A stretch of DNA of 30,005 nucleotides, taken from positions 1 to 30,005 of IMG/VR virus record IMGVR_UViG_3300010885_041055; one strand, given 5' to 3'. Under the pieces are notes generated by a model, which saw only the letters and a list, made by a program, of their open reading frames with translations, did no database searches and was not told the origin of the DNA. Every line of letters starts with the position of its first letter. The first letter of the stretch is position 1. Positions 10,767 through 26,498 of this stretch are shown piece by piece. Source of the DNA: a virus. Position numbers and translations under genes: made by a program.

Positions 10767-13700
10767 ATGGCCACTAGCAGAAAGACAATAAATTTTCTTC
10801 CAGATATTTTTAAAACTGATGTTAATAAAAAGTTTTTAGGGGCAACGCTTGATCAATTGATTAGCGAACCAAAACTTTCCAAAATCAACGGTTTCATTGG
10901 TAGAAAATTCTCACCGGCAGTGACGCCCAGTAATAATTATATACAAGAACCTACAACTCAACGTGGTGACTATCAATTTGAGCCAGCAGTGGTTGTTAAA
11001 AATAGTAGCAATGATCTTGATTTATACAGTGACTACACCGACCTGGTAGATAAAATTAACTATTACGGAGGAATAACTGATAATCAAGACCGACTATTCA
11101 AATCTGAATATTACAGTTATACGCCCAGGATTGATTTAGATAAATTTATTAATTATACTCGATATTACTGGTTACCAAATGGCCCAACTGAGGTTCCGGT
11201 TTCACCGGGGGTCAGTCCTACTCCTAAAACATTTACAATCACAAAAGGTGACAACGGATATACCACCGATCAAACAGGATCACAAATTAATCCCGATATT
11301 ACTTTGGTGCGTGGAGTCACCTATCAATTTGATCTCAATCAGGCTGGGTCCGAGTTTTGGATTCAATCAGAACCGGGGTTTGATGGAATAAAAGATTATA
11401 ATAACAATGTGTCAAGTCGATTAATATACGGTACCACTGGTAACGGAACAGAGTCGGGGACTTTAACCTTTACAGTGCCTGACAGTCAGGCCCAAGATTA
11501 TTATTTTAAGATGCCATTGTTAAGTTTTGTTGATTATGCAGTCAGCCAATCTTTTTCAAGTCTTGACGGAAATTACTGGTATGCTGGTGCTACCCCAGTT
11601 AGTGATATTGATGGATCAACAAGATACCCTAATTTGTCGTATATTATATTTGTTTCAAACAGCACTGATCCTAACGACTGGGTTGATTATATAGGTAATG
11701 TTGTTCCGGTTGAGCGCAGATCTGGGGTATGGCAAATTACGTTGGACCCTAACTTTCAAATACGTTTGGTATACATTAGAGATATTCCCAAAGGTTACAA
11801 AGTTCGTGCCAATAAAGGAAGTATACATACTGGATTTGAGTTTTTTAAAAATACAACCGGCAATCTATTAAGAATACCTGCAATTACTGCACCATTATCT
11901 GTGCTATATTATCAAGACAGCTTGAATTCATCTTTTACTGGTAAGATTTTTATTGTCAACGCATCAGGTGCAGCAATTGATGTTGTAACTGATATTCTTG
12001 GGAAACTTACATATACAAGTCCCAACGGAGTTGTACTGACCAATGGGCTAAAAATCTCTTTTGCCGCTTCGGTTACTCCTGCTTTGTATAGAAATAAATC
12101 ATACATAGTTGAAGGAGTAGGTATTGGTATTAAACTAGTAGATTTTAACAAGTTGAAACCAATTGAAAGTAATGTACCTGATTCATCTATTCCGTTTGAT
12201 ACTGAACCTTTTGACTCAAGTACTTTTGACCAACCGGTTCCTGGAATTCCACTGGTTGATTACATTATTATGAATCGAGCATCAATTGATTTAAATGCAT
12301 GGTCACGTGGTAATTTTTGGTTTCACGAAGATGTTATAATAAAAACTGCAGAATATATAGGTGTTGCTGTAACAATTGATCATACACAAAGAGCCACACG
12401 ACCTATCATTGAATTTGAAGCAGACTTGCAATTATTTAACAACGGAAGAATATTGTTAGACGCAATTGACAGGGCCGACTTGCAAATTAAAAATACCGGG
12501 CCAGTGTCATCGTGGGTTAAAATAACTGACGCATTTACGCAGATTCATAATAAAACTGTGTCAGACCCATTGATTAAATTGATGAGATATGTTGAAAAAC
12601 AAGTAACTATTTTTCCCAATGACATTGACATAAATGTCAGATCTAAATTGTTTCGCATAGACTTTAAAGACCGGTCTACCGAGATACTATTTGACGGAAC
12701 CGGAACTGGATCTATCAAAACAATTGCTGGGTCTACACATATTACAGATGCTGCTACAATCAACCAAACTCCTAAAACTGATTTTCGCATAGAACTTGAA
12801 ATAGGATCAACCCTACATACTGCTAGCGGACAATATATTGGTAAAGTAAAAACAATATTCAACAGCAGTGAATTGCTGTTGGTCAGTCCTGCAGCAGTGA
12901 GCTATACCAGCACTGGTTTTAAATATAACAAGCCCAAGATAGAATTAGTTGCAATTTCTACCGCTGATGCGTACGATACAGTTGTGGTTAAAACAGGAAT
13001 TAATGCCAAACAAAGTTATTGGTTCAACGGCAGCACCTGGACATTGGCACAACAAAAAACATCAATTAATCAATCACCATTATTTGATGTAGTAGACAAT
13101 CAAGATCAAAGTTTTTCTGACTCTGTTGCCTATCGTCAAAGTAAATTTGCTGGGACCAAAATATTTTCTTATAAGACGGGTTCGGGCACCAATGATATAG
13201 TACTTGGGTTTAGTTTGAGCTATAGTAATATTGGAAATTCAATTGCAGATATTAACTTTGATAACAATTTTGAAATTGATTCATTTATATACAATCCAGT
13301 GACCGAACAGACTAAAAAAGTGTCAACTGGTTATCTACGTAAAAACATTAATCGATACAACTCTAGTAGAGTTAATGTATGGGCCACAGTAGCGGAACCA
13401 AGTAAACAATATCAGCATATAACCAACGAGTATGACGGTCAAACCAGTTATTTTGAAATTGACATACTTCCAACAACTGAAACCAATGAGCCCAATCTTA
13501 AAGTTTTTATTAATAATAAAATTATTAATCGCCTGGAGTTTTCAATTGAATCCGTTGGAATCCGGAATGCAATCAACATAAATCGAACCATGACCAAAGG
13601 TGATAAGATTGACATTTTAATTTATAATAATCAATCGGTAAGCAAACTGGGGTATTATGGAATTCCAAGTAATCTAGAATTTAACGCACAAAATCTTCCA

Positions 13701-16700
13701 ATTACATCAGTCACATTGGGACAACTACGAGGTCACTGGTATGCAATTGGTCGAAATACTTCTTTTGTAACCGGTGATATACTTGCCAGTAACAACCTAC
13801 GTGACCTAGACACCAGATATCAAAGTGGTGTGATTTTGCAACATTCGGCACCAACAATATATAGTTCATTATTTTTAATTGATTCACAAGTTAATTTGAT
13901 GAGTGGCATTGAACTTGCTCGCAGAGATTATACCAAGTTTAAAAACAAATTTCTAGAATTGTGTTTGACCACTGAAGGACTTGACCCAACAAATCCATCG
14001 GGCGGCGTTGAAACTATTCTAAAAATTATTAATGGAGTAAAGAATTCTACATTTGCCTGGCACTACACTGACATGTTGGCCTGGGGAAAAAACTACGTAA
14101 CTGATGAATATAAAATTGTTGATACTCAGAATAAAATATATTCTATTGCAAACATTTATGCAACAATAGGCGACTTTATATATCCCAATTCTGGACTAAC
14201 TAACAAAGGCCTGCTAGTTTATCTCAATAACAGACTATTGGTAATTGGATTGGATTATTTGATAGTTTCTGGTACCCCTGCGATAACACTAACTACAAAT
14301 ATTATCATTGGCGACATGTTGGTAATCAAAGGATATAAAAATACTGATGGCAGTTATATCCCAGAAACACCAACCAAATTGGGTTTATTTCCAAAACATG
14401 TGCCGTCTATATTAACAGACACAACTTACCGAACACCGGTGCAGGTGATACAAGGGCACGATGGTAGTTTAACTCCGGTATTTGGCGATCTCAGGGATAC
14501 GTATCTGATTGAACTTGAAAAACGAATATACAACAATCTTAAGACTGAATATAATACTCAACTGTTTGATATAATGTCTGTCATCCCTGGAAAATTTCGA
14601 CAGAGAGATTACTCTATTAAAGAGTTCAACCAGGTATTAAATACTGAATTTTTAAAATGGGTTGGTACCAATCAGATTGATTTTGGAACCAATGAATTTT
14701 TTAAATCAAATGATCCGTTTACTTGGAATTATAATCAAACCAGTGACACGATTGATGGGGAAACATTACTTGGATACTGGAGGGGTATTTACAAATATTT
14801 TTATGATACCGACCGACCGCATTCACATCCTTGGGAGATGTTAGGGATAGCAGAAAAACCAGTCTGGTGGGAGTTCCATTATGGTGCAGCACCATATCGA
14901 TCCGATAACACAATGTGGATTGATTTAAAACTTGGGTATTCTCAAGGTACTGCTGCTGTTAATGAAACTTATGCTCGCCCAGGATTATTAAATATTATCC
15001 CAGTTGATATTGATGGTAATTTATTACCGCCAACGGCGCACCTGGTAAAGAATTTTGATGGAACCAAATTCAGTCAAGGATATATAATTGGTGATCATGG
15101 GCCAGTTGAATCGGCCTGGAGAAGAACAAGCGAATATCCTTTTGCATTGCAACGAGCACTGGCATTGCTGAAACCTGCTCGGTACTTTGGATTATTGTTT
15201 GATTCAACAGCATATCAAAAAGATACAATCCTGAATCAATATATTATACAAAAAACCAACAAGCGAGTCACTGCTGGGGCCATTGTTATCAATGGAGAAA
15301 ATGATACTGCCCGTGCCAGTGGTTACTTGAATTGGATACATGGTCACCTGACCAATTTGGGAATTGATGCAGCAGTTCATATTCGATCTGTCCTGAACAA
15401 TTTGGATGTTAAACTTGGTTACAAGATTGCTGGATATACTGACAAAAAATACATTACTGCATTATTAGAACAATTTAGTCCGACTAGTACAAGTCAAACT
15501 GTTATTGTGCCTGATGAAAATTATGTAATACATTTGAATAAAAGTGTTCCAATTCGCCGAGCAACTTACAGTGCAGTAATTGTACAAAAAACTGGAACCG
15601 GTTATCGGATCAATGGCTACAATCTGCATTATCCGTACTTTACTGTAATACCCAGCGAGTTCAATAATAATGCCTATGTGATTTCAGCCTTGTCTCGACG
15701 TGCAACAATATTCAATGACTATAAAAAACAAAAAATTGTTGTACCGTACGGTTACGAATTTAAAAATGAGCAACAAGTTGTTGACTTTTTAGTTGGTTAT
15801 GAGCGGTATTTAACTTCTCAAGGATTTGTATTTAATAAATTTGATACTGATCTGAAACATCTGACAGATTGGGTACTCAGTGCCAAAGAATTTTTAACTT
15901 GGTCATTACAAGGATGGCGTCCCGGCAACGTAATTGTTTTAAGTCCAGTATCATATATCTTGAAAATATATAGTGCTGACTCAGTGGTTGATTCAATCAC
16001 AAACCAAATTGGCAATTCTCAAATTCTAGGCCCTAATTTCAATGTTATTCGTAACGATGAGACCAGTATCCTAAGAGAGCCAGGACTGACTACTATTACT
16101 GTAATCTCTGGACAAACTATTGCATTTGCTGAATTAAATTTAGTTCAGTATGAACATGCATTGGTATTTGACAATGTGACTGTCTTTAATGATATTGTAT
16201 ACAAACCGGAATTAGGTAGTAGGCAATATAGATTAAAACTTGTTGGTAATAAAACAGGTGATTGGGATGGCGCTCTTAATCCACCAGGATTCATTTATAA
16301 TACCGGTAAGATTGATGAATGGCAACCGGGTCGCGATTTTATCAAAGCCGATATTGTTAAATACAAGAATCAAAAATACACAGCAATTAAAGATATACCC
16401 GGTACCAATACGTTTAACTTTGATAACTGGAGTATCTTAGATAGGCCGCTCGAATCTGGACTTATACCAAACTTTGCACTCAATGCTAGCAAGTTCATTG
16501 ACATTTATGACATTGACAGCCCAATCATTGACGAGCAATTTGATACGTTTAGTAATGGCTTAATTGGATACAGAAGTAGATCTTATCTAGAAGATTTAGG
16601 TATGGATCAAAATACACAGAGCAAATTCTATCAAGGATACATCAAAGAAAAAGGTACTAAAAATTCTATTTCTGCTTTGTTCAACGGTCAGTTTGATAAT

Positions 16701-19700
16701 CTAACCAATGAATTCGGACTTTTTGAAGAATGGGGATTAAGAGTTGGAGAATATGGTGCGACTCGATCCAAGTTAAGCATTGAGCTGATATTAGATGAAT
16801 CAAAATTTAAAAATAATCCATCAGTATTCAAATTGTTAAATTCTAGTGATTACTCAATTGAGCCAGTCATAAGCATTCGCCCTGGACAATTATTAGTACG
16901 CCCATTGGATTATAAAGTGCCAATCTTTTTAGATCGTCCATTGGGGTTGAATTACGAAACTGACATTAAATCTGCCGGGTACGTCAACGTCAATGACGTG
17001 GACTTTACATTATTTGATTTTAGTAACTTTTCAACACTGGGAATAAAAGTTCTTTCATCTTTGGTCAATGGGTTTAAACTTTGGGTGGCTAAAGATTTTA
17101 ACAACGACTGGCAAGTGTATAAAGTAATGCAAGCCAATAATACAGTTGTTACAGTTGAATACAGCCTTGACAATAAAATCAAAGTTACAACAAACTTTGA
17201 CCATGGACTTCAGATTGGTGATGTATTTGCTATCAGAGATTTCAGTGATATAATTGATGGTTTTTATCAGGTACTAAATGTCGAAACACCAAACACATTG
17301 ATAACTATAGTCAACACTGATATAATTATAGAGTTACTTAATAATACAATTGATAGCACCGGTGACTTGTTTATCCTACAAAAATCTCGATACACAAATA
17401 TTGCATCTAGAGATATTGATGTAACAAAAAACTTCAGATCTGTCAACGACACAGTGTGGGTGGATGATATAGATGATGGCACCTGGGCAGTATACAAATA
17501 CAACAACGGTGCTGTTGGAAGTTACAGCGGTATCAATAGTTTCTGGGGCATTGAACAAGGGACAATAACCTTACGTGCAACAGGATTGCCGTACCATAGT
17601 TATGGTAATGTTTCGATTGACATGTCTGCATCTGTTCAAAATTATAATCGATCGTGGCCTTTGTACGCAGGATCAAATGTTGCTGCAACTACCCAGACTA
17701 ACATTGGCACAGGATTGATTGGATTTTGGTTAAACGGTGTTGCAATCTACAGTCCTAAGGGTTCTGATTATTATGCTCCGGGCGACTTTTTATCTATACC
17801 AGAGCTAAACTACAATCTGGCATATTCAGATTACCAAACCTTTGACAAAGACCTAGCTGGTGGGACCATACCCGATGACGGACAATATTTTTATCGTAAT
17901 TTTAGTTTTGCTGAAGCATGGATCAGCGGTGTTGGCGCAACTGGACAATCCAACACCGGTGGAGCACACGAAACAGAATCAATACCGTATTTAAATGGTG
18001 GCCTGATAAACAACGATAACCATAGCAAAATTTTAGGTTTTGCAATTGATGGTTATCCAATTTATGGCCCTTATGGATACAATTCCCCATTGGTGGCAGG
18101 AGCAGTAACAAGAATGCAAACTGGATACACTATACGTAGTTCCGCATATCGAGCACCAACTCAAGCATGTGATCTTACTGCATATCCGATGGGCATGTTT
18201 ATACAAGATTATGTATTTCAATCCTCTGGGCATCTTGATGCACACAACGGTCGTTTCTGCGTTACACCAGAGTATCCAAGTGGAACATATGCATATTTTA
18301 CCACTGTGGATTCCGGTGGCGCACCAGTTTACCCTTATGTAATTGGGCCAACATATTATGGTAATTTACCAAGTGTTGGCAATTCTTTAATTGGCGGGCC
18401 TGGCATTGCACCTGTAGGATTTACATCAATGGTTGATGTGACCTGGACAAAAATTGTTAGTCAAACACCAGCGGTTGATATCAACAGCATAGCTGGCATG
18501 TATTTGTTTGACAAGGTAACTAAAATAATACTCACACGCCTGGATTTTATTGATCCTGCCAAAGGAAGAATTTTAGGCACTGCGCAAGCTGACATAGATT
18601 TTACAACCTCAACAGATCCTGCCAGATACAATCAAGGCACTTCAACCAATTTACCAATTGATTTGGAATACAGTTGGGGTGAACAACAAATAGGTATGAT
18701 CTGGTGGGACTTGGATGTTTGTCGATTCTTTGACTATGAGCAAAGCGATTTAGAATATAGAACTGCTTATTGGGGAAAGTTATTTCCTGGCAGTAGTATC
18801 CATGTGTATGAATGGGTAGCAAGCCATGTATTGCCATCAGCATATGTCGATGCTGGACTAGTTGGTATTCCAAAATTCCAAGATGATAGTGCTTATGTGG
18901 CATTGTCTTATGTAGATTCCAGTACTAACATTTTACAAACCAAATTTTACTTCTGGGTCAGAGGTAATACCACAGTAACATTGCCATCAAAGTCACACAG
19001 TGTGTCTACACTGACTCAAATGATCAACTCGCCTGTTATGCAAAATATACCATATGCAGCGGTATTAAGTGGCAATAGTATTGCATTATATAATATTGGA
19101 AGATTTTTAAAAGAAAAAAACACAGCTCTGCATATTGATTACAATGTTGTACTGAATGAAAATATTATCCATAGCGAATTTGAATTGTTCCAAGAAGGCA
19201 ATAAAGATAGTATTATGCATCCTCGTATTGAGGACAAATTAATTGATAGTATCGTTGGAGCAGATATAAACAACAATATTGTACCCGATCCTAGTTTATC
19301 GCCTGGTGATCGTATAGGATTGTCAGTTAGACCAAGGCAAACACTAATTATCAATAGATTAAAAGCTGTCAAGGATATGACAATTTTTATTAATACAGTA
19401 TTGATCAAGTATCCAGTAACGTCTCGTATTATAAACAAAGAAACTATCTATTCAAATAATTTTTATGCATATCAGCCAATTCCGGACACATCTCAATTTG
19501 ATTATACCGTGAACACATTTGAAGAAGTGGACTATATGCCAGAAGTGGGAGCCGGATCGTTTATAGTTGGTAAAAAATACATTATTACAGCAATAGGCAA
19601 CACTGACTTTACTGCAATTGGATCTATAGCAAACACATTGGGTGTAATATTCACAGCAACTGGCCCGGGCACAGGTACCGGGTATGCCTATCCTAGTCGC

Positions 19701-21839
19701 GTATTAGTTAAAGCAGATTTTGGTTATGGTAATCGTTGGACTATATACCAGAAAAATATTGGGGTGGCCAATTCAATAATTAAAATTCAAAGCTACAATA
19801 CTACAAACCTATGGAGTAAAATTGATTGGTATGCCAACGGATACGACAGCAAAACAATTATAATTGATTACACAATTAATAAATTTTATGACATATACAA
19901 ACTTAATTTAGTTGTTGGTAATATTATTAAAGTCAAAGACGATGGCGCCGGGCTATTTGAAATTTACAAATACAATTCTAGCGGCAAATTTGATCTTGTT
20001 GCACTAGAAAAAGGAACTATACAACTGAGCCAAGATTTATGGAAACCGGCTGGATTTGATTATTCTCCATTGGATACCGAGACGTTTGACTTGAACTTCT
20101 TCAATGAATTACGTTACATACTCAAAGGTATAAAGGAAGATATATTTGTCAGGGATCTGGCTATTTACTATAATCAATTCCTATTCTTTATAGTTGAATT
20201 CATACTGGCTGAACAGAAGTATGTAGATTGGATTTTTAAAACTAGTTTTATTTCAATATCTCACCGTTTGCAAGGGCTAATACAAACTCCGTTCTATGTT
20301 AAAGATAGACAGACCTTCTACGAACAATATATCAAAGAAGTTAAACCATATAGAACAAAATTAAGAGAATACATATTGACATATCATACATCCGAGTCGC
20401 TGGACAGGGCAACAGTTACTGATTTTGATTTACCGTCATATTATGACTTGGACTTGCAAATTTATCGCAGTCCAAATGGACAATTACCATCAAAAGATAC
20501 AGAATTACTAAACACCAGGGCTGAATATCAAGATTGGAATAACCACCATACTTACCAGCTTTCAGACATTGTTATTGCCAATGGAGGTAGAGGATTTGTA
20601 ACAGAACCTGATATTTCTATTGTTAGTAATGGATCGGGCACTGGCGCAAGTGCACGTTCTGCTATCAACTCAACCATTGGATCAATCTCAAATATATATA
20701 TAACCAATCCAGGTAACGGATATATAACTACTCCAGTTGTTGCAGTTACTGGTACTGGCACAACCCCAATGAGCAAGTATCAAACAGGGAAATACAAACA
20801 AGCGGTGATTAGCGCACGTATTGACAATACAAAAATAAGAAAACTCAAAACCGTAATGCGTTTTGACCGTATTCAATACTTGTCACAGGTAGTTGATTGG
20901 ACTGCCAATACCAGTTATGCTCGGGGTACCTATGTAAGCCATTTGGGCAAAGGGTACGTTGCTAATTCTCCTGCACTGGCTGCAACATTCTTTGACAATG
21001 CAGTGTTTACACCAGTCAATTCAGCCATGTTTGATAATGCAAATGACAGGATTTTTGCATCATATAGTCCCACAGTTAGTATGGTACCCAAAGTGTTAGC
21101 TAGACTCATGACTGGATTGAATAACCCTCAGGCACAGACAGATCCAACAGTAACTGCTGATACTGCTATCCTGGGCGGCGCCTTTACTGGATCTGCTATC
21201 CCAGCTGGACAATTTGTTGTGGGCGAAACATATATCATCACAGTAATTGGCAATACCGATTACACTCTAATTGGTGCAGTTGCTAATAAAATTGGTTTGC
21301 AATTTACAGCAACCGGCGCTGGTACAGGCACAGGATCAGCAGCAATTGCAATTTCAGCCAATGCAATCAGCACAGTCGATGGTATATCTGCAGGCGACAT
21401 AGCTGTGTACGGCGGAGCATTTGTATACGAAATATTCAGTCATGCTCCAGAAGAATTATTACCTGGAATTGTATTTGATGCAATAAGTATCTATTCAATA
21501 GATCACGATGGCGTGGGCTATCGAAGATTTACTGACATGAATAAAACAAGGATTACATCAGTGGTTGATCCTGCTACTAATACTGTACTGTCACAACCAC
21601 TGGCAATGACTGATATAGAAATAAATGTAGCAGATGGATCTGTATTAGCAGTACCAAACCCAATGGCCTTTTTACCTGGAATTATACATATAGGTGGCGA
21701 AAGAATTGAGTACTATACCAAAGTTGATAATACCTTAGGACAAATACGTCGTGGTGTTGGCGGCACGTCAACTCCAATGTTACATAGGACTGGTAGCAAT
21801 GTTGAAAATGCCAATGTTGCTGGTCCGTTGTATAGTTAA
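10767..21839 (+). CDS. Giant virion structural protein with YHYH domain, at the gp7 position
   Basis: A single 3,690-residue reading frame, about 37% of the window. No similarity to T4 gp7 is obvious; the role in baseplate or tail periphery is inferred from its place after gp6. Visible parts: a beta-rich domain near 140-250 (VTYQFDL onward, ending LTFTVP) like cupredoxin-type modules of marine phages; a carbohydrate-binding-like stretch at 1852-1888; a YHYH domain at about 2280-2530 (GFAIDGYPIYGPYGY at 2424-2438, HLDAHNGRFCVTPEYP at 2489-2504); shared modules at 2930-2975 and 3481-3524; and Gly-rich GxGYxTxP repeats near 3261-3335. The end (GGERIEYYTKVD, then RRGVGGT) resembles adhesive phage proteins. 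The ATG follows a weak AGG site 7 bases after gp6. Confidence 0.7.
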   Translation: MATSRKTINFLPDIFKTDVNKKFLGATLDQLISEPKLSKINGFIGRKFSPAVTPSNNYIQEPTTQRGDYQFEPAVVVKNSSNDLDLYSDYTDLVDKINYYGGITDNQDRLFKSEYYSYTPRIDLDKFINYTRYYWLPNGPTEVPVSPGVSPTPKTFTITKGDNGYTTDQTGSQINPDITLVRGVTYQFDLNQAGSEFWIQSEPGFDGIKDYNNNVSSRLIYGTTGNGTESGTLTFTVPDSQAQDYYFKMPLLSFVDYAVSQSFSSLDGNYWYAGATPVSDIDGSTRYPNLSYIIFVSNSTDPNDWVDYIGNVVPVERRSGVWQITLDPNFQIRLVYIRDIPKGYKVRANKGSIHTGFEFFKNTTGNLLRIPAITAPLSVLYYQDSLNSSFTGKIFIVNASGAAIDVVTDILGKLTYTSPNGVVLTNGLKISFAASVTPALYRNKSYIVEGVGIGIKLVDFNKLKPIESNVPDSSIPFDTEPFDSSTFDQPVPGIPLVDYIIMNRASIDLNAWSRGNFWFHEDVIIKTAEYIGVAVTIDHTQRATRPIIEFEADLQLFNNGRILLDAIDRADLQIKNTGPVSSWVKITDAFTQIHNKTVSDPLIKLMRYVEKQVTIFPNDIDINVRSKLFRIDFKDRSTEILFDGTGTGSIKTIAGSTHITDAATINQTPKTDFRIELEIGSTLHTASGQYIGKVKTIFNSSELLLVSPAAVSYTSTGFKYNKPKIELVAISTADAYDTVVVKTGINAKQSYWFNGSTWTLAQQKTSINQSPLFDVVDNQDQSFSDSVAYRQSKFAGTKIFSYKTGSGTNDIVLGFSLSYSNIGNSIADINFDNNFEIDSFIYNPVTEQTKKVSTGYLRKNINRYNSSRVNVWATVAEPSKQYQHITNEYDGQTSYFEIDILPTTETNEPNLKVFINNKIINRLEFSIESVGIRNAININRTMTKGDKIDILIYNNQSVSKLGYYGIPSNLEFNAQNLPITSVTLGQLRGHWYAIGRNTSFVTGDILASNNLRDLDTRYQSGVILQHSAPTIYSSLFLIDSQVNLMSGIELARRDYTKFKNKFLELCLTTEGLDPTNPSGGVETILKIINGVKNSTFAWHYTDMLAWGKNYVTDEYKIVDTQNKIYSIANIYATIGDFIYPNSGLTNKGLLVYLNNRLLVIGLDYLIVSGTPAITLTTNIIIGDMLVIKGYKNTDGSYIPETPTKLGLFPKHVPSILTDTTYRTPVQVIQGHDGSLTPVFGDLRDTYLIELEKRIYNNLKTEYNTQLFDIMSVIPGKFRQRDYSIKEFNQVLNTEFLKWVGTNQIDFGTNEFFKSNDPFTWNYNQTSDTIDGETLLGYWRGIYKYFYDTDRPHSHPWEMLGIAEKPVWWEFHYGAAPYRSDNTMWIDLKLGYSQGTAAVNETYARPGLLNIIPVDIDGNLLPPTAHLVKNFDGTKFSQGYIIGDHGPVESAWRRTSEYPFALQRALALLKPARYFGLLFDSTAYQKDTILNQYIIQKTNKRVTAGAIVINGENDTARASGYLNWIHGHLTNLGIDAAVHIRSVLNNLDVKLGYKIAGYTDKKYITALLEQFSPTSTSQTVIVPDENYVIHLNKSVPIRRATYSAVIVQKTGTGYRINGYNLHYPYFTVIPSEFNNNAYVISALSRRATIFNDYKKQKIVVPYGYEFKNEQQVVDFLVGYERYLTSQGFVFNKFDTDLKHLTDWVLSAKEFLTWSLQGWRPGNVIVLSPVSYILKIYSADSVVDSITNQIGNSQILGPNFNVIRNDETSILREPGLTTITVISGQTIAFAELNLVQYEHALVFDNVTVFNDIVYKPELGSRQYRLKLVGNKTGDWDGALNPPGFIYNTGKIDEWQPGRDFIKADIVKYKNQKYTAIKDIPGTNTFNFDNWSILDRPLESGLIPNFALNASKFIDIYDIDSPIIDEQFDTFSNGLIGYRSRSYLEDLGMDQNTQSKFYQGYIKEKGTKNSISALFNGQFDNLTNEFGLFEEWGLRVGEYGATRSKLSIELILDESKFKNNPSVFKLLNSSDYSIEPVISIRPGQLLVRPLDYKVPIFLDRPLGLNYETDIKSAGYVNVNDVDFTLFDFSNFSTLGIKVLSSLVNGFKLWVAKDFNNDWQVYKVMQANNTVVTVEYSLDNKIKVTTNFDHGLQIGDVFAIRDFSDIIDGFYQVLNVETPNTLITIVNTDIIIELLNNTIDSTGDLFILQKSRYTNIASRDIDVTKNFRSVNDTVWVDDIDDGTWAVYKYNNGAVGSYSGINSFWGIEQGTITLRATGLPYHSYGNVSIDMSASVQNYNRSWPLYAGSNVAATTQTNIGTGLIGFWLNGVAIYSPKGSDYYAPGDFLSIPELNYNLAYSDYQTFDKDLAGGTIPDDGQYFYRNFSFAEAWISGVGATGQSNTGGAHETESIPYLNGGLINNDNHSKILGFAIDGYPIYGPYGYNSPLVAGAVTRMQTGYTIRSSAYRAPTQACDLTAYPMGMFIQDYVFQSSGHLDAHNGRFCVTPEYPSGTYAYFTTVDSGGAPVYPYVIGPTYYGNLPSVGNSLIGGPGIAPVGFTSMVDVTWTKIVSQTPAVDINSIAGMYLFDKVTKIILTRLDFIDPAKGRILGTAQADIDFTTSTDPARYNQGTSTNLPIDLEYSWGEQQIGMIWWDLDVCRFFDYEQSDLEYRTAYWGKLFPGSSIHVYEWVASHVLPSAYVDAGLVGIPKFQDDSAYVALSYVDSSTNILQTKFYFWVRGNTTVTLPSKSHSVSTLTQMINSPVMQNIPYAAVLSGNSIALYNIGRFLKEKNTALHIDYNVVLNENIIHSEFELFQEGNKDSIMHPRIEDKLIDSIVGADINNNIVPDPSLSPGDRIGLSVRPRQTLIINRLKAVKDMTIFINTVLIKYPVTSRIINKETIYSNNFYAYQPIPDTSQFDYTVNTFEEVDYMPEVGAGSFIVGKKYIITAIGNTDFTAIGSIANTLGVIFTATGPGTGTGYAYPSRVLVKADFGYGNRWTIYQKNIGVANSIIKIQSYNTTNLWSKIDWYANGYDSKTIIIDYTINKFYDIYKLNLVVGNIIKVKDDGAGLFEIYKYNSSGKFDLVALEKGTIQLSQDLWKPAGFDYSPLDTETFDLNFFNELRYILKGIKEDIFVRDLAIYYNQFLFFIVEFILAEQKYVDWIFKTSFISISHRLQGLIQTPFYVKDRQTFYEQYIKEVKPYRTKLREYILTYHTSESLDRATVTDFDLPSYYDLDLQIYRSPNGQLPSKDTELLNTRAEYQDWNNHHTYQLSDIVIANGGRGFVTEPDISIVSNGSGTGASARSAINSTIGSISNIYITNPGNGYITTPVVAVTGTGTTPMSKYQTGKYKQAVISARIDNTKIRKLKTVMRFDRIQYLSQVVDWTANTSYARGTYVSHLGKGYVANSPALAATFFDNAVFTPVNSAMFDNANDRIFASYSPTVSMVPKVLARLMTGLNNPQAQTDPTVTADTAILGGAFTGSAIPAGQFVVGETYIITVIGNTDYTLIGAVANKIGLQFTATGAGTGTGSAAIAISANAISTVDGISAGDIAVYGGAFVYEIFSHAPEELLPGIVFDAISIYSIDHDGVGYRRFTDMNKTRITSVVDPATNTVLSQPLAMTDIEINVADGSVLAVPNPMAFLPGIIHIGGERIEYYTKVDNTLGQIRRGVGGTSTPMLHRTGSNVENANVAGPLYS
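19554..19691 (+). repeat. Shared 45-50-residue module, copy 2 (in giant protein)
   Basis: Residues 2930-2975 of the giant protein: GSFIVGKKYIITAIGNTDFT, then AIGS, later FTATGPGTGTGYAY. It matches copies 1 and 3 in the spacing of the Gly, Tyr, TD and ATG residues. Confidence 0.8.
21207..21338 (+). repeat. Shared 45-50-residue module, copy 3 (in giant protein)
   Basis: Residues 3481-3524 of the giant protein: GQFVVGETYIITVIGNTDYT, then LIGA, later FTATGAGTGTGS. It is closest to copy 2 and lies near the C-terminal end of the protein. Confidence 0.8.
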
Positions 21840-22028: not shown

Positions 22029-22655
22029 ATGCAACCACATGAAATATTAGAACCGATGGTGCAGGGATTTATTAAAATTTCTGATGTGTCGGATCACGCT
22101 AATCCTATTGTAATAGTAGAAAAGAAAAATGCTATTCACTATGAAAATATCAGCGAAGCGCTGGCTTTTGGTCTATCTAATAGAGGATCAAATTTTATTT
22201 TTGAAATGCACTTTGGTAACGGTGGGACTAGTGTAGACCCAACTGGTATCATTAACTATTTGCCACCCAACGTAAACACACAAAATGCTGATTTATATAA
22301 TCCTACATTTTATAAAGTAGTAGACGACACTGATGAAAACAATACAGATCCAGTAAGAAATAAAATGGAAGTCAGGCATATCCCAGGAACAGTTTATTCA
22401 GACATTCTGGTAACTTGTTTGTTAGATTATGGCGAACCAGCTGGACAATTGGCATTTGACAACAGCTCTTATGTTACTGATACCTTTGTATTTGACGAGT
22501 TGGGTCTCAAAGGCTGGAGTGCAGCAGGCTTAGGATCAGGTAAATTATTGACTCATGTAATTTTCCATCCAGTGCAAAAGAGCTTGAACAGGTTGATACA
22601 AATTGAGTACACTGTTCGAATACAGTCGCTAACTAACCTGACAGGCACTGCGTAA
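22029..22655 (+). CDS. Virion structural protein of unresolved type, 208 residues
   Basis: The N-terminus MVQGFIKISD, then KKNAIHYENISEALAFGLSN (about 42-61), then MHFGNGGTSVDPTGIINYLP (about 70-89), and late segments TDTFVFDELGLKG and LLTHVIFHPVQKSLNRLI are typical of a structural protein seen in T4-like phages of aquatic bacteria. I do not recognise a T4 counterpart with confidence; gp8 is in the equivalent place but is longer (334 residues). The start has an AAAGGG ribosome site 5 bases upstream. It lies between the giant protein and the tail fibre, so a baseplate or fibre-attachment role is inferred. Confidence 0.65.
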   Translation: MQPHEILEPMVQGFIKISDVSDHANPIVIVEKKNAIHYENISEALAFGLSNRGSNFIFEMHFGNGGTSVDPTGIINYLPPNVNTQNADLYNPTFYKVVDDTDENNTDPVRNKMEVRHIPGTVYSDILVTCLLDYGEPAGQLAFDNSSYVTDTFVFDELGLKGWSAAGLGSGKLLTHVIFHPVQKSLNRLIQIEYTVRIQSLTNLTGTA

Positions 22656-23930: not shown

Positions 23931-25907
23931 GTGACTTTACCAATTTGGACAACAAATCCTTATACACCATTATCATTGGGTAATATTCAAACAGAATTTG
24001 ACGGCCAAGATCCAATTAATTTTAGTGAATACTATAAATCACCATCGGGCTATGTTACTCCTGACAGAAAGGGCTATCCCGGCGGAGTAGAAGTTGCTAT
24101 TCCATCAGCAGGAGACCCAATTTCAATTAGTAATTTTTATGGTGCCAGTGCAGTTCCGTACAGTATTACAACTGACAAGACAGTATATAATGAAGGAGAT
24201 GTTGTATATTTTACAATCACTGCACCAGAGCCAAATGGTAATGTATTATATTGGACAATTGAAGACGCAACAGTATCTGTAACAGTAAATCCATCAACAT
24301 TACCCAATGGCCTACAACGTGTACCATATAGTCAAACAATAACAGCATCAGGCGGCATTGGGTCATATACATATAGGGTGTCACATGGTGCTCTCCCCGG
24401 CGGCCTATCAATTGGTTCAGGGTCGGGTGTGATTTCAGGAAGTCCAACATCCGTTGGCAGCTCAGCATTTATAATTGAAGCAACAGACTCTGCATTTAAT
24501 TCGGGAGTGCGATCATATTCTGTTGCAATCACAGCAGTAACAATTACTCTATCTCCATCAACGTTAACTGCGGCATTCAAGAACGCAAACTATACCAATT
24601 CAGTCAGTGCAAGTGGTGGTCAGGGTCCGTATACGTTTGCAGTTACTTCGGGCACCTTGCCAACAGGTATCTCACTAAACTCCTCAGGAGCAATATCAGG
24701 CCGGGCAACTACACCATCCAGTAATAATATCACTATAACTGCAACTGACGCCAATGGTAACACAGGGTTCAGAGCCTACACATTCACTGTCAGTGATGTT
24801 GTTATTTCTTTAAGTCCAGCAACATTGCCAAGCGGATTACAAAATGTTGCATATACAACTACAGTATCTGCTAGTGGCGGCCAAGCAGCATATCAATATG
24901 CTATTACTTCGGGCACATTGCCAGCTGGGTTGTCATTGAATACAACAAATGGTTTAATTTCTGGAACACCAACAGCAGTTGTTAACTCCACTATTACTAT
25001 AACAGCCACTGATGCAAATACAAATACTGGTAGTAAGGAATACACACTGTCAATTGGTCTAGTAACTATTACGCTTGACCCAACAAGTCTACCTGGCGCA
25101 AGCAGGAATATTGCTTATAGTCAACAGATTACTGCAAGTGGCGGCACCAGCCCGTATGCATATTCTTTATTCTCAGGCTCTCTTCCAGCTGGTTTATCAA
25201 TATCTGGTACAGGACTTATCACTGGATCGCCGAGCGCAACCGGTACGTCATCATTTGTAGTTAAAGCAATTGATGCTAATTCTAATTCTGGTTCACGTTC
25301 ATATACTATTGTTGTGGCCGCTGTGACTATTACGCTAAGTCCACCAACACTACCAAATGCGCCTACTAATACCTCCTATACGCAGACCATTACAGCGTCT
25401 GGCGGTACCAGCCCGTATACATTCACAGTAACCTCTGGATCATTGCCAACTGGTCTAACATTGTCTTCATCTGGAGTTATATCCGGAACACCAACGGTAG
25501 CCGGATCATCAAGTTTTACAGTCACCGCAGCTGATGCAAATACCAACACTGGCACTCGAGCATATACTATTGTTGTGTCCTCAGTGACTATTACACTGAG
25601 TCCATCCACACTTCCAGGTAAAGCCATCAATGTTTATGCACATGCTGTTATTGGTGGTACAGTAGGAACACCTTTGATAAGTGCCTTGGTTGACAACTCC
25701 TATACCCAGACCATTACAGCGTCTGGCGGTACCAGCCCGTATACATTCACAGTAACCTCTGGATCATTGCCAACTGGTCTAACATTGTCTTCATCTGGGG
25801 TCATTACTGGAACACTAACAACAACCGGGTCATCAAATTTCACAGTCACCGCAACTGATGCAAATACCAACATTGGTACCCGAGCGTATTCAATAGCAGT
25901 CACTTAA
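23931..25907 (+). CDS. Adhesin-like tail protein with six putative-Ig repeats inserted in a Calx-beta-like domain
   Basis: A 658-residue protein starting at GTG, supported by AGGA 7 bases upstream. Residues 1-76 are a phage N-terminal module ending SISNFYGAS. Residues 77-113 (YSITTDKTVYNEGDVVYFTI, then NGNVLYWTIEDA) look like the first half of a Calx-beta-like domain. Residues 115-658 are six repeats of about 87 residues of the He_PIG type, each with VTITLSPSTLP, YTQTITASGG, SLPTGLTLSSSGVISGTP and DANTNTGTRAYTI-like segments. The sixth repeat carries about 21 extra residues. The missing half of the Calx-beta-like domain seems to start the next gene. A surface adhesin or receptor-binding role is inferred. 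Confidence 0.75.
   Translation: MTLPIWTTNPYTPLSLGNIQTEFDGQDPINFSEYYKSPSGYVTPDRKGYPGGVEVAIPSAGDPISISNFYGASAVPYSITTDKTVYNEGDVVYFTITAPEPNGNVLYWTIEDATVSVTVNPSTLPNGLQRVPYSQTITASGGIGSYTYRVSHGALPGGLSIGSGSGVISGSPTSVGSSAFIIEATDSAFNSGVRSYSVAITAVTITLSPSTLTAAFKNANYTNSVSASGGQGPYTFAVTSGTLPTGISLNSSGAISGRATTPSSNNITITATDANGNTGFRAYTFTVSDVVISLSPATLPSGLQNVAYTTTVSASGGQAAYQYAITSGTLPAGLSLNTTNGLISGTPTAVVNSTITITATDANTNTGSKEYTLSIGLVTITLDPTSLPGASRNIAYSQQITASGGTSPYAYSLFSGSLPAGLSISGTGLITGSPSATGTSSFVVKAIDANSNSGSRSYTIVVAAVTITLSPPTLPNAPTNTSYTQTITASGGTSPYTFTVTSGSLPTGLTLSSSGVISGTPTVAGSSSFTVTAADANTNTGTRAYTIVVSSVTITLSPSTLPGKAINVYAHAVIGGTVGTPLISALVDNSYTQTITASGGTSPYTFTVTSGSLPTGLTLSSSGVITGTLTTTGSSNFTVTATDANTNIGTRAYSIAVT
25383..25474 (+). 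repeat. 92-base perfect direct repeat, copy 1
   Basis: Identical over 92 bases to 25707-25798, lying in repeat unit 5 of the adhesin gene. Identity stops at single-base differences on both sides (G/C before, A/G after). Confidence 0.92.
25707..25798 (+). repeat. 92-base perfect direct repeat, copy 2
   Basis: Identical to 25383-25474, in repeat unit 6. The offset is 324 bases (108 codons), so recombination between the copies would keep the reading frame. Confidence 0.92.
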
Positions 25908-25925
25908 CTATACCAAAGATAAATT

Positions 25926-26450
25926 ATGCCATTAAATACATCTGATTTTATACCGGGCTCCTTGTCGGGCAGTGCAGAATTATTTTCTAAAGGATCTGCA
26001 TTTAACAAAACCATCACCCTTGACGGTGTGCCCGAAGGAAACGAAAAGTTCATAGTCAAGTTGCGAAAAAATAGTACCTCCGGCGAAGTTGTTGCGTCAA
26101 GTGACATTATTAGATTAAATGATACTAGCCAGGCAGACGAAGCAGCAGTTTATAACTTGTCCGCCAGTGCCTTTGCAGTGGCCGAAGGAAGTAGTGTTGT
26201 GATCACCCTTACTACTATAAATGTACCAAATGGCACAACAGTGCCTTATAACATAACAGGCATCTCTTCTGCTGATATAGGTTTATCACCATTGGTAGGA
26301 ACATTCACTGTTACATCAGTTGGTGTAGCAACTGCTACACTCACACTGGCATTGACACAGGACAACATTGCTGAAAACAATCAAGTCATGACAGTCACGC
26401 TAACTGGTATTACTCCAGTCACACTTGTAAGAGTCACAATTATTGGGTAA
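25926..26450 (+). CDS. Calx-beta-like protein, probably the detached C-terminal half of the upstream gene
   Basis: A 174-residue protein. Residues 4-68 (TSDFIPGSLSGSAELF, then GVPEGNEKFIVKLRKNSTSG and RLNDTS) look like the second half of a Calx-beta-like domain. Residues 76-161 form a complete copy (AEGSSVVITLTTINVPNGTT, later DNIAENNQVMTVTL). It is in the same frame as the upstream adhesin; two TAA stops (25905-25907 and 25920-25922) separate them. No ribosome binding site is visible before the ATG, so expression may depend on re-initiation after the upstream stop 18 bases away. It ends just before the terminator. A virion surface role is inferred. Confidence 0.65.
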   Translation: MPLNTSDFIPGSLSGSAELFSKGSAFNKTITLDGVPEGNEKFIVKLRKNSTSGEVVASSDIIRLNDTSQADEAAVYNLSASAFAVAEGSSVVITLTTINVPNGTTVPYNITGISSADIGLSPLVGTFTVTSVGVATATLTLALTQDNIAENNQVMTVTLTGITPVTLVRVTIIG

Positions 26451-26453
26451 TAA

Positions 26454-26478
26454 AAAACAGGACCTCGGGTCCTGTTTT
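26454..26478. terminator. Bidirectional rho-independent terminator
   Basis: A perfect 11-bp stem (AAAACAGGACC at 26454-26464 with GGTCCTGTTTT at 26468-26478) and a 3-base loop. A-runs and T-runs flank it on both sides. It lies 3 bases after the last plus-strand structural gene and 20 bases after the end of thyX on the minus strand, so it can stop both convergent units. Confidence 0.92.
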
Positions 26479-26498
26479 ATTATCAATTTTCAATCATA

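Follow-up and report, generated by a model that had tools for sequence, protein, structure and literature searches.

Two adjacent phage genes carry parts of one domain

The 30,005-base IMG/VR virus record IMGVR_UViG_3300010885_041055 (hereafter the window, meaning the whole stretch of DNA analyzed) derives from a jumbo myovirus-like phage and belongs to its tail region. Two adjacent open reading frames (ORFs) in this region, A (23931-25907) and B (25926-26450), each carry part of a domain with a predicted Calx-beta fold, as an earlier note on this DNA had proposed. When aligned with unsplit orthologues, residues 77-113 of A (half 1) and residues 1-70 of B (half 2) together cover a single domain of those proteins; they do not overlap, and no more than about four residues are missing. 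Between them lies an insert of about 1.6 kb that encodes immunoglobulin (Ig)-like repeats. The features of the locus are as follows.

22029..22655, plus strand: conserved tail-cluster gene, 208 amino acids (phrog_11259, E 2e-69), which served as the synteny anchor and as the basis of the phage tree
22706..23917, plus strand: tail-fibre-type protein with a C-terminal intramolecular chaperone, Peptidase_S74 (PF13884, 55 bits; PHROG tail-fibre/baseplate families)
23931..25907, plus strand: gene A, 658 amino acids, GTG start, comprising an N-terminal domain, half 1 and a He_PIG Ig array
23931..24158, plus strand: conserved 'SISNFYG' N-terminal domain of A, residues 1-76 (alignment, hidden Markov model)
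24159..24269, plus strand: half 1 (A residues 77-113), strands A, A', B and C (alignment, secondary structure)
24270..25904, plus strand: insert, an array of He_PIG Ig-like repeats in the C-D connection (PF05345, 278 bits, six stretches)
25905..25925, plus strand: stop codon of A, then an 18-nucleotide spacer that contains another in-frame TAA and lacks an evident Shine-Dalgarno sequence
25926..26450, plus strand: gene B, 174 amino acids, comprising half 2 and one intact Calx-beta-like domain
25926..26135, plus strand: half 2 (B residues 1-70), a turn and strands D, E, F and G (alignments; confidence of the read-through model described below)
26151..26447, plus strand: second domain of B, intact and Calx-beta-like, residues 76-174 (alignment)

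The 'SISNFYG' domain, which alignments and the hidden Markov model recover from split and unsplit orthologues but not from B, is the probable site of virion attachment. The phrog_11259 gene at 22029 has its best isolated relatives in Sinorhizobium phage Phosso and Agrobacterium phage Atu_ph07 (55-58% identity), followed by Rak2-like jumbo phages.

The gene break falls between two strands of a predicted Calx-beta fold

The intact domain of the unsplit orthologue L021 was modeled with AlphaFold2 from an alignment containing intact rows and both kinds of half (predicted local distance difference test, pLDDT, 89.6; predicted template modeling score, pTM, 0.81). Strands are predicted at residues 5-10, 14-16, 20-28, 34-40, 55-59, 64-71, 79-89 and 96-106, and they form the two-sheet sandwich with strands A-G that characterizes the Calx-beta fold. 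The gene break corresponds to residues 41-44, between the fourth and fifth of these strands (C and D). The sheet assignment of the Calx-beta strands is well established, and a cut between strands C and D divides both sheets. Thus, neither half would have a full core on its own.

Structure comparisons place the intact domain near known Calx-beta domains. The top solved matches found by Foldseek are NCX1 (E 1.7e-4) and CALX CBD1 (E 3.7e-4), and VIA-align gives Z scores of 9-9.7 to Calx-beta CBD1 domains (best 9.7, with a root-mean-square deviation of 2.7 over 98 residues, 3ead_C). Domains of TEP1 and alpha-2-macroglobulin are tied with these (Z 10-10.8), and the equal scores indicate that what is shared is the fold class. 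Viral structural matches include virion proteins of Prochlorococcus phage P-SSM2 (template modeling score 0.82-0.86). The predicted fold is the point of likeness to NCX1 and CALX CBD1, integrin beta4, and P-SSM2 virion protein Q58ME0. Unlike these domains, the split domain is encoded here by two genes and scores below the Pfam cut-off: the B half reaches 13.7 bits for PF03160 (cut-off 27 bits), and the intact L021 domain has no PF03160 hit. A later domain of the B protein of L020 does reach 27.4 bits. A phmmer search of the PDB with the intact domain gave no significant match, and a literature search for Calx-beta domains in phage tails found no paper.

The insert is an Ig-repeat array

The insert belongs to the He_PIG family, since its PF05345 score over the repeated stretches (six scored by Pfam) far exceeds the cut-off of 24 bits. 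It differs from other He_PIG arrays in that it sits in a loop of another domain and ends the protein. No nuclease, homing endonuclease or intein was detected in A by Pfam, which reported He_PIG, and no Rfam family was matched in the region at E values up to 1. At seven loci, no direct repeats or target duplications flanking the insert rose above chance. Tandem Repeats Finder gave no result on the array, although another repeat search does show repeats. Two of the Ig repeats in the window (25373-25570 and 25697-25894) are 89% identical over 198 nucleotides, the result of a recent duplication. An additional stretch of about 20 residues, predicted with low confidence, is inserted in the last repeat.

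Insertions are also seen in the C-D region of other Calx-beta-like domains. DUF4214-like modules lie there in frame in the B proteins of L007 (12785-18331, B residues 586-1087) and L011/L012 (B residues about 820-895), and in L007, L011 and L012 the DUF4214-like stretch precedes a half-2 match. The same ORF of L007 also contains a half-1 match, about 500 residues ahead of the half-2 match. Because this region of other domains also carries in-frame insertions, in-frame insertion with fission later is a plausible path.

Split and unsplit relatives

Relatives were collected by IMG/VR scans with the anchor gene, A and B, together with ORF-level profile searches. Nine phages carry the split form: the window phage, 3300010160, L007, L010, L011, L012/L013, L016, L018 and L020. 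A and B are adjacent on single contigs in eight of these (window included), and lie on two contigs in the ninth, 3300010160. At each split locus, half 1 in A is followed at once by a first He_PIG repeat that is homologous in every split phage, and B opens with half 2, starting 8-28 nucleotides past the stop codon of the preceding array gene. Every split A on a long-enough contig has a neighboring B that starts with half 2. Given that the A N-terminus with half 1 and the B half recur in nine phages, a chance arrangement is excluded. B lacks the N-terminal domain of A in all split phages. The earlier note spoke of a C-terminal part that was cut off; far from being a remnant, B is a conserved gene whose product exceeds 1,800 amino acids in relatives.

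Unsplit orthologues occupy the same slot after the S74 fibre gene in L021, L107/L108 and L024, where half 1 runs uninterrupted into half 2 within one gene (followed in L021 by the second domain of B). The earlier note had suggested looking for relatives in which residues 77-113 continue straight into the downstream protein, and these loci are such relatives. Unsplit orthologues at the same position are also expected of genes-in-pieces. Intact domains with half 1 directly preceding half 2 in a single protein occur in L118 and L099 as well. Half 1 immediately precedes half 2 within one ORF in 62 of 84 good half-2 matches; 11 others follow inserted or diverged sequence, and 11 open an ORF. All 11 in the last group belong to the split clade, and ORFs beginning with the full half 2 are found in that clade only.

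In a midpoint-rooted tree of the anchor gene, used here as the phage tree, the split loci form one clade (Shimodaira-Hasegawa-like approximate likelihood ratio test 92) whose sister is the L021/L107 group, with L024 further out. The split/unsplit label requires one change on this tree versus five for shuffled labels, which never cluster as well. Because the split loci form one clade and the unsplit loci fall outside it, the unsplit form is the older state, which upholds the proposal that Ig repeats within a single ancestral gene severed its C-terminal portion. A single fission event is the simplest reading. Identity within the split clade is 72-99% for the anchor gene and 39-94% for half 1; the split is old and clade-wide, and not peculiar to the window phage.

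Some loci depart from the common arrangement. L020 carries tandem A paralogues (11907-15218 and 15227-19195), both of which have the N-terminal domain and half 1, but only one B, with half 2, comes after them; if A and B dock as proposed below, the two A products could compete for, or share, this B. The A genes of L022 (at 11233) and L023 (at 11753) have a Thr/Gly-rich linker in place of half 1, and the gene after A (L022 12436-14424, L023 12956-14944) opens with strands F-G and then D-E of the half domain, as if circularly permuted. Searches of isolated phages with the joined domain or the N-terminus of A gave a weak marine match only, or none, and the annotations of Phosso and Atu_ph07 show no adjacent A/B pair after the anchor. 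A scan of genome contigs returned only two contigs, both from one metagenome-assembled genome: L164 and L165 (NZDU01000049.1 and NZDU01000036.1) are assigned to Pacearchaeota and carry this phage tail gene. They are probably phage contigs misassigned to that bin.

Both halves are under purifying selection

In the three closest pairs, half 1 has a ratio of nonsynonymous to synonymous substitution rates (dN/dS) of 0.04-0.21, and half 2 has one of 0.10-0.19; some pairs that are more distant show saturation at synonymous sites. Both halves are under purifying selection and are thus kept as complementary coding regions, as in genes-in-pieces. They change at an equal pace (mean identity 55% for half 1 and 53% for half 2). 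Distances for the A N-terminus and half 2 of B are correlated (r=0.84, Mantel p below 0.001), as are those for the two halves (0.69), indicating that A and B travel together.

Flanking features

A strong terminator-like hairpin (ACAGGACCTCGGGTCCTGT, with A and T runs on its flanks) lies at 26452-26480, between B and an opposing thyX-type gene, which is on the other strand downstream of B. At 10767-21839, a 3,690-amino-acid tail protein is encoded whose residues 2305-2515 hold a YHYH domain (PF14240, 91 bits) and a CBM_5_12 match.

A possible docking joint between two fibre chains

We favor, as the likely explanation of these sequence and modeling data, that A and B reassemble noncovalently through the split domain, so that B would dock on A to give a two-armed, Y-shaped fibre or adhesin. 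An ancestral virion gene would have encoded an N-terminal domain, a Calx-beta-fold domain and further C-terminal domains. An Ig-repeat array would then have entered the C-D loop, either arriving in one step or growing in frame before the break, after which the reading frame came to end after the array and a new start arose just before strand D. Gene A would now make the N-terminal domain, strands A-C and an Ig arm, and gene B would make strands D-G and an arm of its own. Together, the two halves would make up a single beta sandwich serving as the joint that fixes B, which lacks the N-terminal domain of A, onto A. The Ig arm of A would leave this joint at the C-D loop and the arm of B at the C-terminal end of strand G, yielding a forked fibre. 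Reassembly in trans would explain the exact tiling of the halves, the constraint on both, their constant adjacency, and why B never carries the N-terminal domain of A.

The earlier note had also suggested predicting the structure of the two fragments together. In a model of the window chain that translates past both TAA codons and includes the 545-residue array, half 1 was predicted at pLDDT 92-94 and half 2 mostly at 88-96 (one block at 81). The strands follow the same order as in the intact domain, down to the small turn ahead of strand D. That the halves pack against each other is what we infer from the confidence values and strand pattern. A structure search with the whole read-through model was of no use for the split domain, as the Ig array swamped the results.

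Several other points weigh against noncovalent reassembly. The overall pTM of the read-through model is 0.40, as expected with a flexible array, and the alignment behind it included intact homologues. The anchor gene is itself correlated with half 2 (r=0.74), and co-inheritance thus partly reflects shared phylogeny. Placement of A and B in the virion is suggested by gene context and domain type. Finally, the isolated halves could be stabilized in some other way.

In the strongest alternative, which we consider rather unlikely, the split is real and the halves do not pair. The first Ig repeat might cap half 1, and half 2 might be used otherwise, for example in strand-swapped B homomers or with another virion protein. 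Conservation of each half does not by itself name its partner, and B begins several residues ahead of strand D, as if adapted to being an N-terminus. However, independent use does not explain why the residues kept are those of exactly one nonoverlapping domain. The halves also evolve at the same rate and always occur together, and no partner besides A is required.

It is very unlikely that one full-length protein is still produced, whether ribosomes read through or hop over the stop codons or the insert is removed as an intron or intein. The earlier note was correct that A and B in the window share one frame; the stop and spacer contain two TAA codons, and this arrangement would suit such a mechanism. 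However, the frame relation has not proved meaningful. B is offset by 1 or 2 relative to A in relatives (including L001), and readthrough or recoding was rejected because no relative's adjacent pair keeps the frame; the shared frame in the window is a coincidence. Moreover, the insert is coding almost to its last base, and the absence of Rfam, intein and endonuclease matches and of flanking repeats above chance gives no sign of a removable element.

Signals near the start codons hint at another relationship. No evident Shine-Dalgarno sequence precedes B in the split phages, whereas most A genes begin with GTG and are preceded by a TAGGA-type sequence. This difference hints that translation of B may be coupled to that of A, given stop and start codons 8-28 nucleotides apart. 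The GTG start is present, whether the locus is split or not, in the window, L002, L007, L010, L011, L012, L016, L018, L020 (first copy), L021 and L024; the one exception is the second A of L020, with an ATG start. A promoter-like TAAATA motif ahead of B was considered and set aside because it occurs at some loci only, with no consistent motif.

Two further alternatives seem highly improbable. If the two-gene state were ancestral, L021, L107 and L024 would be fusions, a reading left room by a tree rooted only at its midpoint. However, two separate unsplit lineages flank the split clade, and two fusions at the same residue would be needed. Half domains are also implausible as primitive units, because intact ones are common and both halves share one ORF in 62 of the 84 matches. 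Equally, the halves might be functionless, decaying leftovers of a broken gene, as the missing half 1 and scrambled half 2 of L022 and L023 could suggest. The low dN/dS values of the closest pairs (0.04-0.21) and the persistence of both halves in nine phages, at identities as low as about 40%, argue otherwise. An assembly or sequencing artefact, conceivable for a metagenome-derived virus record, is hardly credible given the same junctions in contigs of about ten different metagenomes.

Relation to known systems and significance

Phage genes-in-pieces are known from nrdA of Aeh1, a ribonucleotide reductase gene split by mobE, gp43 of phage 25, and T4 topoisomerase gene 60, and the split form has been shown to be functional for Aeh1 and phage 25 (PMC2988022). 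These enzymes are broken by, or adjoin, a homing endonuclease gene, with 44RR gp43 broken by untranslated sequence (PMC2988022). As in those systems, the A/B locus derives from a contiguous phage gene broken by an insertion into two coding regions, and unsplit relatives exist. The known polypeptides must reassemble, and the same logic would apply to A and B. In contrast to Aeh1 nrdA and gp43, the A/B pair is a virion-type repeat protein split within one small beta sandwich, and the inserted sequence, an Ig array, is joined to the N-terminal fragment, with no endonuclease.

Donor-strand complementation in pili and engineered split Ig-fold tags both use two chains to form one beta sandwich. A and B would resemble them in this respect, but each chain would contribute about half of the domain, and the division arose by gene fission.

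If noncovalent reassembly is correct, this naturally evolved split domain could serve as a protein-coupling pair. States from before (L021, L024) and after (nine phages) the split are available in nature, so the question of whether the joint works is testable with short soluble fragments. The case would be one of a gene divided within one small structural domain, with the division maintained through long divergence. We also raise the more tentative possibility that the split domain is an evolved docking joint, through which a linear fibre became a branched adhesin of two chains, with arms free to lengthen or be exchanged independently of each other. Fission of this kind would offer phages a simple way to derive branched virion fibres from linear ones.
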